IMG/VR virus record: IMGVR_UViG_3300025818_001787
Span: 1 to 36,561 of that record
Strand: one strand, 5' to 3'
DNA from: a virus
Length of the DNA: 36,561 nucleotides
Notes under the pieces: generated by a model
What the model saw: only the letters and a program-made list of their open reading frames with translations
Databases searched by the model: none
Told to the model about the DNA's origin: nothing
Shown: positions 4,767-35,313 of the stretch, piece by piece
Layout: each line of letters opens with the position of its first letter
How positions within the stretch are numbered: the stretch's first letter is position 1
Program-made: the position numbers and the translations under genes

Positions 4767-5648
4767 TTAATCTCCGTATTGTGAGCGTACCATAGTTCTA
4801 TGTTTAGCATCCCCAGCTAAGTTATTCAATGCTCTTCTGTTATCAGGCAATGTTGCGTCTTGCAACACTACGGTTTCTTGATAAACACCACCTGGTATGT
4901 CTTGCGTATAGTATTTATCAAATTGTGGAACGGTAGTTAACTCAATATACATTTGTGTCTGAGAGGTATCTACCAGTTTATCTATTGAAGCTTCAGCGTT
5001 AAGAGCAGCTATATCTTCATCTATTATTTCTTCGTTTTCATCTTGCTCTACTTCATAATCATCCTCTAAGTCCGTTTCGAGACTTAGTTGATATTGAACC
5101 CATTCATCATAATATGGATCGCCCACTTCAGGTTCTTTATCGAGTAATCCATTGTCCTTCAACCATTGATACAATGCGTCATAATATCCTGGACAACTAG
5201 GATCAGTAAGTGGGATATAGCATTCGTCATATCGATATTCATATATTACATTAGGATTGATTACAGAACCTTGTCCTTGAATGCTTATTTCACCATCCCC
5301 CCATAATGTAGTCGATGTTTCTGGTATGACAACTTTCTTGTTTATTGTATTGCCAGGAAGTCCAGACCAATCATCAGTATTACTAAAAATATATTCTCCA
5401 AAGTCTATTGCGTGTTTGTTTCGAATAGTAACCGTAAGATCAGAGTCAGGGTCTTTTTCAGTAGTATATTGATACAACATACCATTGATAGTCAAACCAG
5501 CTTGAGGTGGTAAGACATCTTCCATTCTCCATTGCATGCCATTTGATGCAGCGTTATTAGTAGACCCATATATTACATCAGAGTAACAATAGGAGTAAGA
5601 GACCACCGACAATACCGCCGCCCCAAAGGGTACTCTTAGTTTCACCAT
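4767..5648 (-). CDS. Large exported acidic protein, 293 aa
   Basis: Starts MVKLRVPFGAAVLSVVSYSYCYS, which reads as a Sec signal peptide. A beta-rich region follows (DLTVTIRNKHAIDFGEYIF, TLWGDGEISIQGQGSVINP), then a tyrosine- and acid-rich stretch (ETDLEDDYEVEQDENEE), and a conserved-looking tail (MYIELTTVPQFDKYYTQDIP, then GDAKHRTMVRSQYGD). It is probably a periplasmic or surface protein. Its start overlaps the upstream gene by 71 bases, an unusually long overlap here, but the signal peptide supports that start. The function is unknown. Confidence 0.7.
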   Translation of the reverse strand: MVKLRVPFGAAVLSVVSYSYCYSDVIYGSTNNAASNGMQWRMEDVLPPQAGLTINGMLYQYTTEKDPDSDLTVTIRNKHAIDFGEYIFSNTDDWSGLPGNTINKKVVIPETSTTLWGDGEISIQGQGSVINPNVIYEYRYDECYIPLTDPSCPGYYDALYQWLKDNGLLDKEPEVGDPYYDEWVQYQLSLETDLEDDYEVEQDENEEIIDEDIAALNAEASIDKLVDTSQTQMYIELTTVPQFDKYYTQDIPGGVYQETVVLQDATLPDNRRALNNLAGDAKHRTMVRSQYGD

Positions 5649-6120
5649 TCATCTTATCTTTCTTAGGATTATATCCTGGTTTCTTATTTGCATTCTTTTC
5701 CCAAGCTGCTTTGGCTTGGCTTCCAATCAATCCATCGTATGGACAAGGTGTACCTGCATTCATCATAGCTTCAAATACCTTTTCGTCTTGACACATAGTT
5801 GATACTGCTGCAACTTTCATGCCCATATCGTAAAGAGTCTTTGCGTTTTTTAGTCGCATGCAGTTTTCTTCAGTGAATGTAGTACCTGCACTAATGCCAA
5901 GTATTTGTGTTTGAACTGCACCTGCAACTCCAACAGTACATAGATCAGAGTTCGATGTATTGATGGATGGAGATACTGCTGATGGTGGTGGAGAAATGAC
6001 TTTAGTACGTGAATCAGATGTTGAGTCCACTGTACTTGTGGTAGTCGATTCCGTGACAATAGGTTCAGCGTATGCAGCACTAGCTAAAATAGCTAATATA
6101 GCTAAAACTCTATAGATCAT
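5578..6120 (-). CDS. Exported protein with C-terminal membrane tail
   Basis: A 180-residue protein with an N-terminal signal peptide (MIYRVLAILAILASAAYA) and a low-complexity Ser/Thr/Pro region (residues 20-57). A cysteine-containing helical domain follows (TEENCMRLKNAKTLYDMGMK, STMCQDEKVFEAMMNAGTPC), and the end is very hydrophobic (GGGIVGGLLLLLLL). The four cysteines suggest two disulphides. The closing hydrophobic run could anchor it in the inner membrane or form a surface-exposed tail. It is the first gene of the exported block after the candidate promoter near 6140-6169. Confidence 0.75.
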   Translation of the reverse strand: MIYRVLAILAILASAAYAEPIVTESTTTSTVDSTSDSRTKVISPPPSAVSPSINTSNSDLCTVGVAGAVQTQILGISAGTTFTEENCMRLKNAKTLYDMGMKVAAVSTMCQDEKVFEAMMNAGTPCPYDGLIGSQAKAAWEKNANKKPGYNPKKDKMNGETKSTLWGGGIVGGLLLLLLL

Positions 6121-6414: not shown

Positions 6415-6909
6415 CTAACCGTAAACGCATCCAACAATGTGTAGCCTCATACTCTGAGAAGCGTTTACTGCTGTGTGTCGTTTTGTTGTATCTGTCAAAT
6501 AAACTTTCCCTTTTTCTAGATGAAAAGTCTGATTGTCAAAAATCATTACACAATCCTCATTAGTAAGCAAAGGAATATGCACTCGTTTTGTCATATCGTG
6601 ATGAAAAGTGAGACAGGTTTTTGGATTACTTTTCATTAACCTTGTGCGCCGCAATCCATACTTATCGATCAATCTATTGATGTTAGGTATATCAAACAAG
6701 GGGTATTTAAAATATGTTTCAGGGTATTGCAGTTTGTTGAGTCTTTCGACAGACGCAGACCATTCCTCTTTAGGATCGAGATCAGGCTTATGACCCTGCA
6801 ATCCAACTTGATCAATATCTTTCCATCCTTTGCCAAGTGTTACTTTGACAGAGTTAGCTTCTTCAAGTATTTTATGATGGTCTATATCTTCTAAAATATC
6901 AACGTACAT
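6415..6909 (-). CDS. Aspartyl/asparaginyl beta-hydroxylase-like protein
   Basis: A 164-residue protein with the signature of cupin-type Fe(II)/2-oxoglutarate hydroxylases of the aspartyl/asparaginyl hydroxylase group. It has TFHHDMTKRVHIPL (H-x-D with the R-x-H-x-P strand), then a distal KRHTAVNAS and SMRLHIVG supplying the second histidine and the 2OG-binding arginine. Such enzymes oxidise side chains or small molecules with O2 and 2-oxoglutarate; the substrate is unknown. The ATG at 6909 has GAGGAT upstream. It lies just behind the terminator at 6921-6950, so it either starts a new transcript or depends on read-through. It is one of six jelly-roll oxygenase-like genes in the window. Confidence 0.75.
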   Translation of the reverse strand: MYVDILEDIDHHKILEEANSVKVTLGKGWKDIDQVGLQGHKPDLDPKEEWSASVERLNKLQYPETYFKYPLFDIPNINRLIDKYGLRRTRLMKSNPKTCLTFHHDMTKRVHIPLLTNEDCVMIFDNQTFHLEKGKVYLTDTTKRHTAVNASQSMRLHIVGCVYG

Positions 6910-6920
6910 AATATCCTCAA

Positions 6921-6950
6921 ATAAAAATAGGGGGCTAACCATGGCCCCCT
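6921..6950 (-). terminator. Intrinsic terminator after the outer-membrane-like gene
   Basis: On the minus strand AGGGGGC, an eight-base loop, GCCCCCT, then TATTTTTATTT. A seven-pair GC-rich stem with a following T-run lies 40-70 bases after the stop of the 6992-7351 gene. Confidence 0.8.
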
Positions 6951-6991: not shown

Positions 6992-7351
6992 TTAGAACTC
7001 GAATGATACGCCAAATGTTGCATCACCGAACTCGAAATCAGCGTCTGTGCCGATCTCGCCATATGCACGTAGACCTGTATTACCGATTGTGTAACCCGCT
7101 TCTAGATCAATACCTTTGAATACGTCATCTTCGTTTAGACCTAGAATATCAAAAGTTGTCGATGCTGCAAAGTCTACACCCCAACGATTGATACCTGCTT
7201 TTGGAACGAACTCCATTGCAAACTCTTCTGCGCCAGTGTCATACTTTGTGTCGAACTTACCGCCTAGTGACACGCCTGTGTTACCTAGTTCGATTGCTGA
7301 TGCTGATGTTGCTACCAATGTAGCTGCTGCTGCGAATGCTGCGATTTTCAT
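6992..7351 (-). CDS. Small outer-membrane beta-barrel-like protein
   Basis: A 119-residue protein with a classic signal peptide (MKIAAFAAAATLVATSASA). The mature sequence alternates hydrophobic and polar residues with glycines (TGVSLGGKFDTKYDTG, GIDLEAGYTIGNTGLRAYGE) and ends in phenylalanine (FGVSFEF), the C-terminal signature of outer-membrane barrels. About 100 mature residues would suit a small barrel of roughly eight strands. The ATG at 7351 has AGAAGGT upstream. It lies directly downstream of the tmRNA and is closed by a strong terminator. A phage-made outer-membrane protein could alter host permeability or receptor exposure; this is inference. Confidence 0.75.
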   Translation of the reverse strand: MKIAAFAAAATLVATSASAIELGNTGVSLGGKFDTKYDTGAEEFAMEFVPKAGINRWGVDFAASTTFDILGLNEDDVFKGIDLEAGYTIGNTGLRAYGEIGTDADFEFGDATFGVSFEF

Positions 7352-7389: not shown

Positions 7390-7659
7390 GTGCTACTTTT
7401 CTGTTGCTAGGTAAGTAGCCAACCCCCTGTGATTATGCTGCTAGAGCAAATCCAGATGGTGCAAAGTTATCGTTTGCATTTGTGTTTCGTAGACTCAAAT
7501 ACCAGTCGATCCTATTTTCAGCCCCATCAGAAACACACCTTCTTGGCCCGATTAAGGGTTGTGTGCTGCACCACACCTATTGTGCAGATAGGCGAAGTGT
7601 GCTTTTGGTGGAGCTGTGCGGTACTGCCCCGCAGTCCTGAATATCCTCTAACATCTACA
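7390..7659 (-). ncRNA. ssrA: Circularly permuted two-piece tmRNA (ssrA)
   Basis: On the minus strand the acceptor piece comes first. A T-arm (TGCGG stem, seven-base loop, CCGCA; 7633-7617) is followed directly by CAGCTCC (7616-7610) and ACCA (7609-7606). After an 80-base spacer the coding piece begins GGGGCTG (7525-7519), which pairs fully with CAGCTCC to make the seven-pair acceptor stem, then AAAATAGGATCGACTGG as the D-arm equivalent. The tag frame at 7477-7433 reads ANDNFAPSGFALAA and a TAA stop. The tag start (A-N-D-N) and ALAA end match alphaproteobacterial tmRNA tags and the LAA degron read by ClpXP. The order acceptor-then-coding is the permuted arrangement known from alphaproteobacteria. 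A stem (GCTACTT with AAGTAGC, 7419-7392) closes the 3' side. The exact 5' and 3' ends are estimated. Confidence 0.93.
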
Positions 7660-7665
7660 GCTATA

Positions 7666-7694
7666 CTTATATCAAAAAAGGGGAGTATTGTCAA
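7666..7694 (-). promoter_or_regulatory. tmRNA promoter
   Basis: On the minus strand TTGACA at 7694-7689, 17 bases, TATAAG at 7671-7666; transcription would start near 7659, about 26 bases before the T-arm. The -35 box matches the sigma70 consensus exactly. Confidence 0.85.
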
Positions 7695-7705
7695 CCCCCT
7701 CTTTT
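7674..7705 (-). terminator. Terminator hairpin overlapping the tmRNA promoter
   Basis: On the minus strand AAAAGAGGGG pairs with CCCCTTTTTT around a 12-base loop, giving a ten-pair stem (one G-T) with a built-in T-run. It lies about 32 bases after the stop of the cotransporter-like gene. The loop contains the TTGACA -35 box of the tmRNA promoter. The reverse complement also looks terminator-like. Confidence 0.75.
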
Positions 7706-30835: not shown

Positions 30836-31357
30836 TTAAGACCAACCAAAAGAAAATCCAACTCGTGAACTATCAGGGAGTGCCACATGATATATGCCTG
30901 TTGGGACATATACAAAGTCACCTTGAGTTAATCTTCGAGAAAATGTTGACTTGGTAGTATATGATTGTGTCTCATCGCTGTAATCACAACCGTTCTCGAA
31001 TATCTTCCATGGCATTGATCCTTGAATCATCACGAAGAAAACTTCCATACCATCTTTGTGTGGTGGAGATGCGATTGCATTGGGACTAAAACCTGCATAG
31101 CAATGGCAAGAGATGTTGATCTTATTAAGAACCTTTGCCAGTTCAGTTGAAATCATTTTAACTATAGGAAAATCATTTCTGTCAACGTTCACAAAAATCT
31201 TGTGGGGGTCTCTTGCCCTTTTGTTTCCATTTAAAAACGACTGGTCAAAGTATGGTACGATTTGGTTCCAATCAGGGAAAGCTTCACTCGGCAAATCTAA
31301 CTTACCATGAAAAGCTTTCCTGCTTGCTATAGCTTCTGATAACCCCTCAGGTATCAT
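30836..31357 (-). CDS. Cupin/JmjC-like oxygenase
   Basis: A 173-residue protein with ASPPHKDGMEVFFVMIQGSM (H-x-D metal pair and strand), PWKIFENG, and LTQGDFVYVPTGIYHVALPD with closing RVGFSFGW. The distal histidine and surrounding YVPxGxYH are the signature of cupin_4/JmjC-type 2OG oxygenases, such as ribosomal-protein hydroxylases. The ATG overlaps the RegA stop (TAATG). Substrate unknown; a translation or nucleotide target is possible. It is another of the jelly-roll oxygenase-like genes of the window. Confidence 0.75.
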   Translation of the reverse strand: MIPEGLSEAIASRKAFHGKLDLPSEAFPDWNQIVPYFDQSFLNGNKRARDPHKIFVNVDRNDFPIVKMISTELAKVLNKINISCHCYAGFSPNAIASPPHKDGMEVFFVMIQGSMPWKIFENGCDYSDETQSYTTKSTFSRRLTQGDFVYVPTGIYHVALPDSSRVGFSFGWS

Positions 31358-33014: not shown

Positions 33015-33652
33015 TTATATATCTTCTCGACAATCTCAAACCCAGTAGCGGTTTCTCTAATAACATCATCACTAACCCACCAATCTTGTTGATGATTCCA
33101 TTTAACATGAAGTTTACTATCTACTATTTTTATATCTACGCTTGGTGTTACATGATCCCATCTGTAGTGATTGTCAGCTTCTGTGAAAGCAACAATAGGT
33201 GGTGTCTTTGTGCTACCATAAACACTGTAAACTTCTTTTGCACCTGCCATTCTTAAAAACGCTAAAGAGGTGATTGGCGTAAGATCAGTACCAACTAGAA
33301 GTTGTTCGCATTCTGAGAAGTCTATGTCATCAACCTCTATTCTGTTATATATGCACGGAAACATAAGAGTATGAGTAGGCTTGATAGTATTCATTGTCTT
33401 GACATAGTTCTTTGCGCTTGTCTTTATATACAAGTCACAATCAGAAAGCATAGAAGGAAACACTGCCATTTCTGTAAAGGCAATACTATCAGGACTGTAT
33501 AGACTTAGTAGTATGCTATTTGACTTTAATCCAAAGAACCCTGTGTTGAACTCACTTATTCTACTAGGTCTTTGTTCTAGTGCATTGATAACTGCACTTC
33601 TGTAAACATCGTTGTCACTTTCAATCCAAGGTACATCATCAATGTAAATCAT
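33005..33652 (-). CDS. Miniature ANL (adenylation)-like protein
   Basis: A 215-residue protein laid out like the middle of an ANL-superfamily (acyl-CoA synthetase/adenylation) enzyme. EFNTGFFGLKSNSILLS (35-51) stands where the STGTTGxPK P-loop (motif A3) belongs. KNYVKTMNTIKPTHTLMFPC is the usual helix-to-'vP' stretch. YSVYGSTKTPP (motif A5, YGxTE) lies at 142-152, and WWVSDDVI (A7, TGD) and TGFEIVEKI (A8 region) follow. It stops at the hinge, so the C-terminal lid with the catalytic lysine is missing, and A3 is degenerate. It may bind a substrate or carry out adenylation with another partner. It starts in an ATGA overlap with the halogenase gene. Confidence 0.7.
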   Translation of the reverse strand: MIYIDDVPWIESDNDVYRSAVINALEQRPSRISEFNTGFFGLKSNSILLSLYSPDSIAFTEMAVFPSMLSDCDLYIKTSAKNYVKTMNTIKPTHTLMFPCIYNRIEVDDIDFSECEQLLVGTDLTPITSLAFLRMAGAKEVYSVYGSTKTPPIVAFTEADNHYRWDHVTPSVDIKIVDSKLHVKWNHQQDWWVSDDVIRETATGFEIVEKIYKCV

Positions 33653-35313
33653 CTCTCAGCCAATGCTTGTTGCAATACCTCTTCATGTGTAGCACCATTA
33701 TGTAATCTTTCTCTAGACCAATCATATATATGCGGCAAATATTCAGCCAATGCTTTACCCTTTGATCTTATATAGTTAAAGTCAATGTCAGCAAGTGGTA
33801 GTAGCTTTTCATCAATGTTTAGGGTACATAGATCATCGTCCCATCTGTCCAAGTAATGTTGTTGCTGCGCCCACTGATAGTCTAAGAATATATTACGACC
33901 CAAGTAACCCCTTGGTGCTCTATATTCATGCCAGTTCATTTCTGTATGCTTAAACAACTTACCCCATGCACATGCCTTTCTCCACATAGGATTATCTTGT
34001 CTTTTACTTAATGTGAAGTGACACGCAATAAAATCGCTAATCTGATTTTCTAGTTTCTGCACTTGTCTACTGTAAGCTTTCTTGGCACTTTTTGTAATGG
34101 TTCTGCCTTTGTATTTTGTGATAGCTTTATCTAACATCTCCATACAACTTTGAGCAACGTAAATGCTATTAGCTTCCATTGGATCAATAAAGCCTTGACC
34201 CATACCAACACCAACAACGTTCTTTATCCAAGCATCTTTATAATACCCTTGTTCCCAATGTAGCATTCTAGGTTCACGAATAAACTCATAACCATCCCAA
34301 TACTTGATAAACCTTTCACGTGCGTCATCAGGATCTTCACTATTGATGTCAAAGATATAACCCGATCCCATTCTGCTGTATAAAGATATAATAAAGTTCC
34401 ACCCATTTGCTTGTGCATAGCTTTGTGTATAGGGTTTCATTTCTTTGTAGGGATCATTGTATTTAACAGGTGCAACCCATGCAGATTGGCATGGTAGTTG
34501 ATCTATACCAATCCATGGAGTATCCATGGTTTTCATTAGGACTCTGTTAAAGCCTGTGCAATCCACATATAGATCAGCAGAGAACGATCTACCATCTCTT
34601 AAGATAAGACTTGTTATATTACCTTCTTCGTCTTTACTGATATCTTCGACATGACCTTCAACCCACTCTACACCTGATGGTAGCGCAACCATATCTCTGA
34701 TCATGACTGGAAAACGCTCTGCATCAACATGCCATGCGTAACTCTTCCAATCACCCAGAGAAAGATTATCTTCCATATCATATGGGGATTTGTTAGCCAT
34801 GGCAGGAAAGTATTGTTCTGTGCAGTATTCAGATACTTCCCACCAGTTATATTTACCCTGTCTAACTAACTCAAGCCAATAGTCAAAGCTTTTATGGTCA
34901 ACACCAAACCTACCATCATTATCATAAAAGAAATCATCATCCTTGAGTTTATGATAAAAACTGTTCTTGAACACCTTATCTCTCATAGTAAAACTAAAAG
35001 AATAGAACTGTTGTTCGTATAGGGGTGCGTTCCAATGATTGGTCACATGAGGTTTTGGTAAGTCGCTATTCCAACCAACAAAATGGTTGCCTAGTTTGTA
35101 AATACCATGAGTGTTTTTCATCCATGTCTTTTCATCAATATCTAACCAACTCAACAAATCTCCAAGTTGAGGAATGGTGGACTCACCGACCCCCAATATA
35201 GGAACATATGGGGATTCAATTAATGTAATATTGATTTCTGGATGTCTCTTTTTCAAGAGGGCAGCGGTGAACCATCCGATTACACCACCACCTAACACTA
35301 CTATGTTTTTCAT
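33649..35313 (-). CDS. Flavin-dependent tryptophan-halogenase-like enzyme
   Basis: A 554-residue FAD enzyme. GGGVIG (8-13) is the GxGxxG dinucleotide loop, GVGESTIPQL (41-50) is the FAD-binding conserved block of PrnA/RebH-type halogenases, and HGIYKLGNHFVGW holds K73 at the catalytic-lysine position (K79 of PrnA). DPMEANSIY (377-385) contains E380, equivalent to the catalytic glutamate. The WxWxIP motif that prevents monooxygenation in classical members is changed here (GWNFIIS, 304-310). The closest described type is the marine cyanophage halogenase VirX1. It would need FADH2 from a reductase and make HOX for halogenating an indole or other ring. The gene is coupled (ATGA) to gp44 before it and to the mini-ANL gene after it. 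Confidence 0.9.
   Translation of the reverse strand: MKNIVVLGGGVIGWFTAALLKKRHPEINITLIESPYVPILGVGESTIPQLGDLLSWLDIDEKTWMKNTHGIYKLGNHFVGWNSDLPKPHVTNHWNAPLYEQQFYSFSFTMRDKVFKNSFYHKLKDDDFFYDNDGRFGVDHKSFDYWLELVRQGKYNWWEVSEYCTEQYFPAMANKSPYDMEDNLSLGDWKSYAWHVDAERFPVMIRDMVALPSGVEWVEGHVEDISKDEEGNITSLILRDGRSFSADLYVDCTGFNRVLMKTMDTPWIGIDQLPCQSAWVAPVKYNDPYKEMKPYTQSYAQANGWNFIISLYSRMGSGYIFDINSEDPDDARERFIKYWDGYEFIREPRMLHWEQGYYKDAWIKNVVGVGMGQGFIDPMEANSIYVAQSCMEMLDKAITKYKGRTITKSAKKAYSRQVQKLENQISDFIACHFTLSKRQDNPMWRKACAWGKLFKHTEMNWHEYRAPRGYLGRNIFLDYQWAQQQHYLDRWDDDLCTLNIDEKLLPLADIDFNYIRSKGKALAEYLPHIYDWSRERLHNGATHEEVLQQALAER

Follow-up and report, generated by a model that had tools for sequence, protein, structure and literature searches.

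A compact two-piece tmRNA gene without pseudoknot 1 in a T4-like phage fragment and related viral contigs

The window analyzed here, the whole 36,561-base stretch of one IMG/VR virus record, is part of the genome of a T4-like (Kyanoviridae-type) phage and carries a complete circularly permuted tmRNA gene of the alphaproteobacterial type on its minus strand, at about 7659–7392. A reading of the sequence alone had placed a phage-encoded, two-piece tmRNA with a ClpXP-type tag at this locus and predicted a minus-strand covariance-model match at about 7390–7660. Searching the whole window with cmscan returned that match with two Rfam models, both above cut-off: RF04321 (tmRNA_permuted) at 7658–7433 (80.5 bits, cut-off 47, E = 4.7e-14) and RF01849 (alpha_tmRNA) at 7698–7389 (75.1 bits, cut-off 50, E = 7.8e-19). 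These are the only two Rfam matches in the window, both on the minus strand at the tmRNA locus. RF01849 is the best match within the tmRNA clan, and the alpha-type T-loop and the terminal AACAGAA loop are present. The covariance models and the phage gene context both support the proposed assignment. A chance origin of the match is ruled out by the covariance-model scores together with helix conservation in 32 phage genes. The features of the locus, in the direction of transcription, are the following.

7681–7699, minus strand: intrinsic terminator of the upstream gene, GGGGGTTGACAATACTCCC then CTTTTTT
7666–7694, minus strand: predicted sigma-70 promoter, TTGACA (7694–7689), 17-bp spacer, TATAAG (7671–7666), 11 of 12 consensus matches
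7606–7659, minus strand: acceptor piece, with P2 5′ strand GTAGAT (7658–7653), T-arm, acceptor 3′ strand and encoded CCA; its 5′ end is placed from the position of the promoter
7526–7605, minus strand: internal transcribed spacer of 80 nt, from the covariance-model alignment, expected to be removed on maturation
7392–7525, minus strand: coding piece, with GGGGCTG 5′ end, D-loop region, P2 3′ strand, linker of about 10 nt in place of pseudoknot 1 (PK1), tag frame and terminal pseudoknot
7433–7477, minus strand: tag reading frame ANDNFAPSGFALAA-stop, resume codon GCA at 7477–7475, TAA at 7435–7433
7392–7425, minus strand: terminal pseudoknot, stem GCTACTT/AAGTAGC (7419–7413 / 7398–7392), second helix GGGT/ACCT (7425–7422 / 7412–7409)
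6992–7351, minus strand: downstream gene, predicted from its sequence to encode a 119-aa exported protein, outer-membrane-barrel-like, with C-terminal F-x-F
6929–6950, minus strand: intrinsic terminator closing the tmRNA and exported-protein unit

The anatomy can be read directly from the sequence. A T-stem TGCGG/CCGCA carries the T-loop GGCAGTA, and the acceptor 3′ strand CAGCTCC is followed by ACCA, with its last base at 7606. The CCA and the acceptor 3′ strand are encoded ahead of the 5′ end GGGGCTG, which starts at 7525, and CAGCTCC forms seven pairs with GGGGCTG including G3.U70. The spacer between them measures 80 nt, compared with 10–224 nt across the compact class described below. Within the coding piece the D-loop region is GGATCGAC, the tag frame has a GCN resume codon at its start and a degradation signal at its end, and the terminal pseudoknot lies 3′ of the tag stop codon. 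Every element listed in the sequence-only reading (T-arm, acceptor end, 80-base spacer, GGGGCTG, D-arm segment and tag) is real and was found in its place, but that list overlooked the terminal pseudoknot and the absence of PK1. Its concern that the T-loop was an oddity proved unfounded: GGCAGTA or GGCGGTA occurs in 28 of 32 related phage genes, the Rfam alphaproteobacterial consensus is GGCgGUA, and GGCAGTA is an ordinary alphaproteobacterial form.

The distinguishing feature of the gene is the region between P2 and the resume codon, where only about 10 nt are present and PK1 is absent, so that the coding piece has its resume codon 48 nt from its 5′ end. This compact form (45–50 nt) is common to about 40 viral contigs, from which 32 distinct sequences were analyzed. 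Among 105 parsed rows, which represent permuted tmRNAs from viral contigs with a few records present twice, the same distance falls into classes of 45–50 nt (41), 56–57 nt (13), 62–65 nt (17) and at least 80 nt (34), counts that are not natural frequencies because one search pattern had been designed to find short inserts. When the pattern made no assumption about insert length, only a few of the viral genes parsed belonged to the compact form. The intermediate classes are found on contigs L145, L151, L162, L179 and L191 (56–57 nt) and L003, L035, L085, L132 and L149 (62–65 nt). In 55 alphaproteobacterial host genes (those with an ANDN-type tag, one outlier at 113 nt being set aside and 29 of 97 host loci being unparsed) the resume codon lies 83–88 nt from the 5′ end and all 55 have inserts of PK1 length; most host sequences contain the PK1 motif CGGCATGGTACCGCCGTTATCGGGCC or variants of it. 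Measured from the 5′ end, the AACAG loop likewise lies at 110–120 nt in compact phage genes, 145–170 nt in phage genes with longer inserts and 149–196 nt in hosts. A weakly resolved tree of tmRNA cores, with too few columns to tell single from repeated PK1 loss, groups the compact genes into two clusters that also hold other phage genes, nearly all of them apart from the hosts. The earlier suggestion that the gene was taken from the host lineage is not supported in the form of a simple, recent capture, given this separation, weakly resolved as it is, and given a PK1-less form that is present in many phage contigs and was seen in none of the host genes scored. At least 120 stretches in IMG/VR match the tRNA-like end of the permuted tmRNA of Alphaproteobacteria, which suggests that phages commonly carry such genes. 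A blastn search with the window tmRNA matched none of 50,697 phage records, and a mixed query of compact genes matched nine phage records only, which share short stretches such as the T-arm and which, where fully read, have the longer insert.

Comparison of the 32 distinct compact genes argues that they are under selection. The pairing of the acceptor and T-stems in related phages, on which the sequence-only reading had staked its case, held in 32 of 32 genes with compensatory changes present. All seven acceptor pairs, with G.U at the third, occur in every gene; the acceptor stem is paired at 100% against 87.7% when partners are shuffled among genes, and the T-stem at 100% against 72.3%, and P2 is paired at 98.3% against 88.2% in the 30 genes where its register could be set, although these shuffles ignore relatedness and are supportive figures, not probabilities. 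The position of the terminal pseudoknot varies little from gene to gene, and its helices covary (GGGT/ACCT, GAGC/GCTT, GGGC/GCCT, GCGC/GCGT), the script finding no second helix in two of the 32 genes and an off-register one in a third. Of 1109 base differences counted between pairs of tag frames, 681 are at the third codon position, and synonymous and non-synonymous codon changes number 468 and 340, compared with 97:701 and 8:782 in the two wrong frames, a pattern that points to purifying selection on the tag in related phages. Compensatory changes in four helices (the terminal pseudoknot among them), a conserved frame and a well-placed sigma-70 promoter in most of the genes indicate, at the level of sequence, selection on the compact genes as a whole.

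In the window 60 nt separate the end of the −10 box from the CCA end of the tmRNA gene, a spacing from which transcription would be expected to begin at the P2 strand. A promoter-like site lies at a similar spacing (59–73 nt) in most compact phage genes. The loop of the upstream terminator (7681–7699) contains the −35 box of the tmRNA promoter, a tight overlap of terminator and promoter. The downstream exported-protein gene probably shares the tmRNA transcript. Its product has no match in Pfam or PHROG, and homologues lie directly or shortly downstream of the compact tmRNA in the same orientation on 15 phage contigs, at 31–54% identity except for one contig that is almost a copy of the window. 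A second arrangement, in which the compact tmRNA and a homologue of the window gene at 5578–6120 are oriented divergently and the exported protein does not follow, is found on contigs L139, L143, L148, L157, L161, L186, L200, L224, L226 and L240.

The surrounding genes are those of a T4-like phage. On one side of the tmRNA lie genes for a T4-like DNA polymerase, clamp loader, UvsX, DnaB-type helicase and endolysin, and on the other side phage-family genes; glucosyltransferase, methyltransferase and tryptophan halogenase genes are also encoded in the window. The best relatives of the polymerase and UvsX are those of phage C48C1 (Kyanoviridae), at 58% and 78%, followed by cyanophages for the polymerase and by Melnitz for the helicase. 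C48C1, the closest sequenced relative by these two proteins, is without a tmRNA, which shows that phages of this group can do without one. Two related contigs with a compact tmRNA carry gp23 capsid genes. None of the 23 virus records searched, whose contigs are fragments, contains SmpB, so the tmRNA would rely on SmpB of the host. Elsewhere on the minus strand of the window, a 157-aa Na+/Pi-cotransporter-like fragment (PF02690; 7737–8210), 86–87% identical in three other phage contigs, is a possible auxiliary metabolic gene. A tryptophan-halogenase-like protein (phrog_2928; 33649–35313) adjoins the clamp loader, and aspartyl/asparaginyl hydroxylase-like and JmjC-type proteins (6415–6942 and 30836–31357) make up two oxygenase-type proteins.

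We consider it likely, with a probability of roughly 0.8, that the locus encodes a functional minimal two-piece tmRNA of a T4-like phage, about 188 nt when mature, which rescues ribosomes by way of host SmpB. For transcription start, processing, charging, tagging and benefit to the phage we infer the following course. Host RNA polymerase would start from the adjacent upstream promoter and produce a transcript beginning at helix P2, from which host tRNA-processing enzymes would excise the 80-nt spacer, RNase P generating the end at the G at 7525 and other enzymes acting on the CCA side. The resulting acceptor piece of about 54 nt and coding piece of about 134 nt would be held together by the acceptor stem and P2, and host AlaRS would charge the tmRNA through G3.U70. 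Delivered by host SmpB and EF-Tu to ribosomes stalled on broken mRNA, it would allow translation to resume at GCA and add (A)ANDNFAPSGFALAA, freeing the ribosome and directing the tagged product to ClpXP-type proteases. Host mRNA is fragmented during phage infection, and a phage-made tmRNA may for this reason keep ribosomes available for late genes. PK1, and with it the spacing up to the terminal pseudoknot, appears to have been pared away. PK1 mainly stabilizes the junction of the tRNA-like and mRNA-like domains, so its loss could be tolerated, and such loss is plausible because E. coli tmRNA in which PK1 is replaced still tags.

The missing PK1 could also be read as decay, the locus being a degenerate or captured remnant of host ssrA, for example from use of that gene as an integration site, and non-functional. 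The window gene does score lower (80.5 bits) than most of the listed host genes (mostly about 98–167 bits, with a few divergent or partial ones lower), and partial ssrA copies are known in prophages (PMC9004378). Decay is nevertheless hard to reconcile with the 32 distinct genes, in which four helices show compensatory changes, the tag frame is intact and under selection and, in most, a promoter is well placed. These phages are T4-like, two contigs carrying gp23, and not integrating elements; a remnant has already been largely refuted and is in our judgment extremely improbable. A functional compact form might instead have come down from a host lineage outside our sample whose own tmRNA is compact, and so not be specific to phages. 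Our sampling of hosts covered part of the Alphaproteobacteria, with 29 of 97 loci unparsed and several streamlined genomes having divergent genes, and the result for a survey of 84,980 one-per-species genomes refers to the matches listed. In that survey, however, a structural filter recognized no tmRNA among the 117 compact-pattern matches listed, compared with about 116 expected by chance from base counts. Across 385 genomes of Alphaproteobacteria a single sequence fitted the compact pattern, and that one spuriously, whereas sequences fitting the PK1-length pattern occur in 95 of the genomes; most of these carry the PK1 motif and a few are visibly chance. Inheritance from such a lineage appears quite improbable.

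It is also conceivable that the phage RNA is specialized, competing with or replacing the host tmRNA and altering what is tagged or how fast, for instance by sparing phage proteins or degrading host proteins, rather than simply adding capacity. The distinct PK1-less structure, found here only in phage contigs, the host-type promoter and tags that are not identical to those of the sampled hosts are consistent with such a role, as is the inhibitory phage tmRNA without a tag known from DS6A (PMC11915505). The phage tags, however, mostly end in ALAA, AIAA or RLAA as in hosts, so tagged proteins should meet the same fate, and we regard specialization as improbable. A broader proposal, that T4-like alphaproteobacterial phages evolved their own minimal, PK1-free class of tag-coding tmRNA, optimized for infection and able to outcompete or redirect host trans-translation, is speculative and, we think, rather unlikely.

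The reading of the locus as a functional minimal tmRNA has consequences beyond this phage. To our knowledge nearly all tag-coding tmRNAs have PK1, and the case that it can be dispensed with has come mainly from work on E. coli mutants. A sizeable natural PK1-free family in which the tRNA-like domain, P2, the tag and the terminal pseudoknot are under selection illustrates how far a tmRNA can be reduced, and a small, well-defined RNA would make phage control of ribosome rescue testable. Detection is an additional issue. ARAGORN reported no tmRNA in the window, a false negative given the covariance-model matches, and it detected 1 of 40 compact genes, 1 of 12 in the 56–57 nt class, 12 of 17 in the 62–65 nt class, 21 of 34 long phage genes and 50 of 55 host genes. 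Phage tmRNAs are under-counted given the figure for compact genes, which may explain how the class went unnoticed; ARAGORN was the detector relied on in the Melnitz phage survey (PMC9004378). A search of the open-access literature, with subscription papers outside its scope, found no report of a natural PK1-less tmRNA class in phages. The novelty lies in this class, as phage permuted tmRNAs as such are already known.

Phage-encoded permuted tmRNAs have been published for some 50 phages, mostly aquatic, in addition to Methylophilales phage Melnitz (PMC9004378), and the 2025 tmRNA database includes bacteriophage sequences (PMC11915505). Like the window gene, the Melnitz tmRNA is phage-encoded, permuted and of the alphaproteobacterial type, and Melnitz is also a T4-like member of the Kyanoviridae. 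Melnitz, DSS3_MAL1 and RcXuper, however, have a PK1-length insert and a resume codon about 82–84 nt from the 5′ end; the distance is about 74 nt in HTVC008M, compared with 48 nt in the window. Melnitz also has a glutamine riboswitch, for which the window gave no match even at E values up to 1. With the two-piece tmRNA of Alphaproteobacteria (RF01849 / RF04321) the window gene shares the permuted order, G3.U70, the encoded CCA, the T-loop GGC[AG]GTA, the GGATCGAC 5′ region, an ANDN... tag ending in ALAA and a terminal hairpin with an AACAGAA loop, and it differs, with the compact phage class, in the absence of PK1 and in the shorter stretch from the 5′ end to AACAG. The tmRNA-like RNA of phage DS6A (PMC11915505) is likewise a reduced phage tmRNA but has no tag frame and inhibits the host tmRNA, whereas in the window gene the tag frame is intact and belongs to a type under selection. 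Tag coding without PK1 is shared with engineered E. coli tmRNAs, in which single-stranded RNA or a hairpin in place of PK1 still permits tagging (Wower 2009 and Tanner 2006, as described in PMC4236655 and PMC3968760); those are one-piece laboratory molecules with three other pseudoknots, and the window gene is natural, two-piece and has one pseudoknot. A 2005 survey listed few tag-coding tmRNAs that depart from PK1, those of Oenococcus oeni and one plastid, each of them missing one PK1 helix, and its shortest tag-coding tmRNA is 250 nt (PMC1168896), compared with a predicted mature size of about 188 nt for the phage RNA described here.
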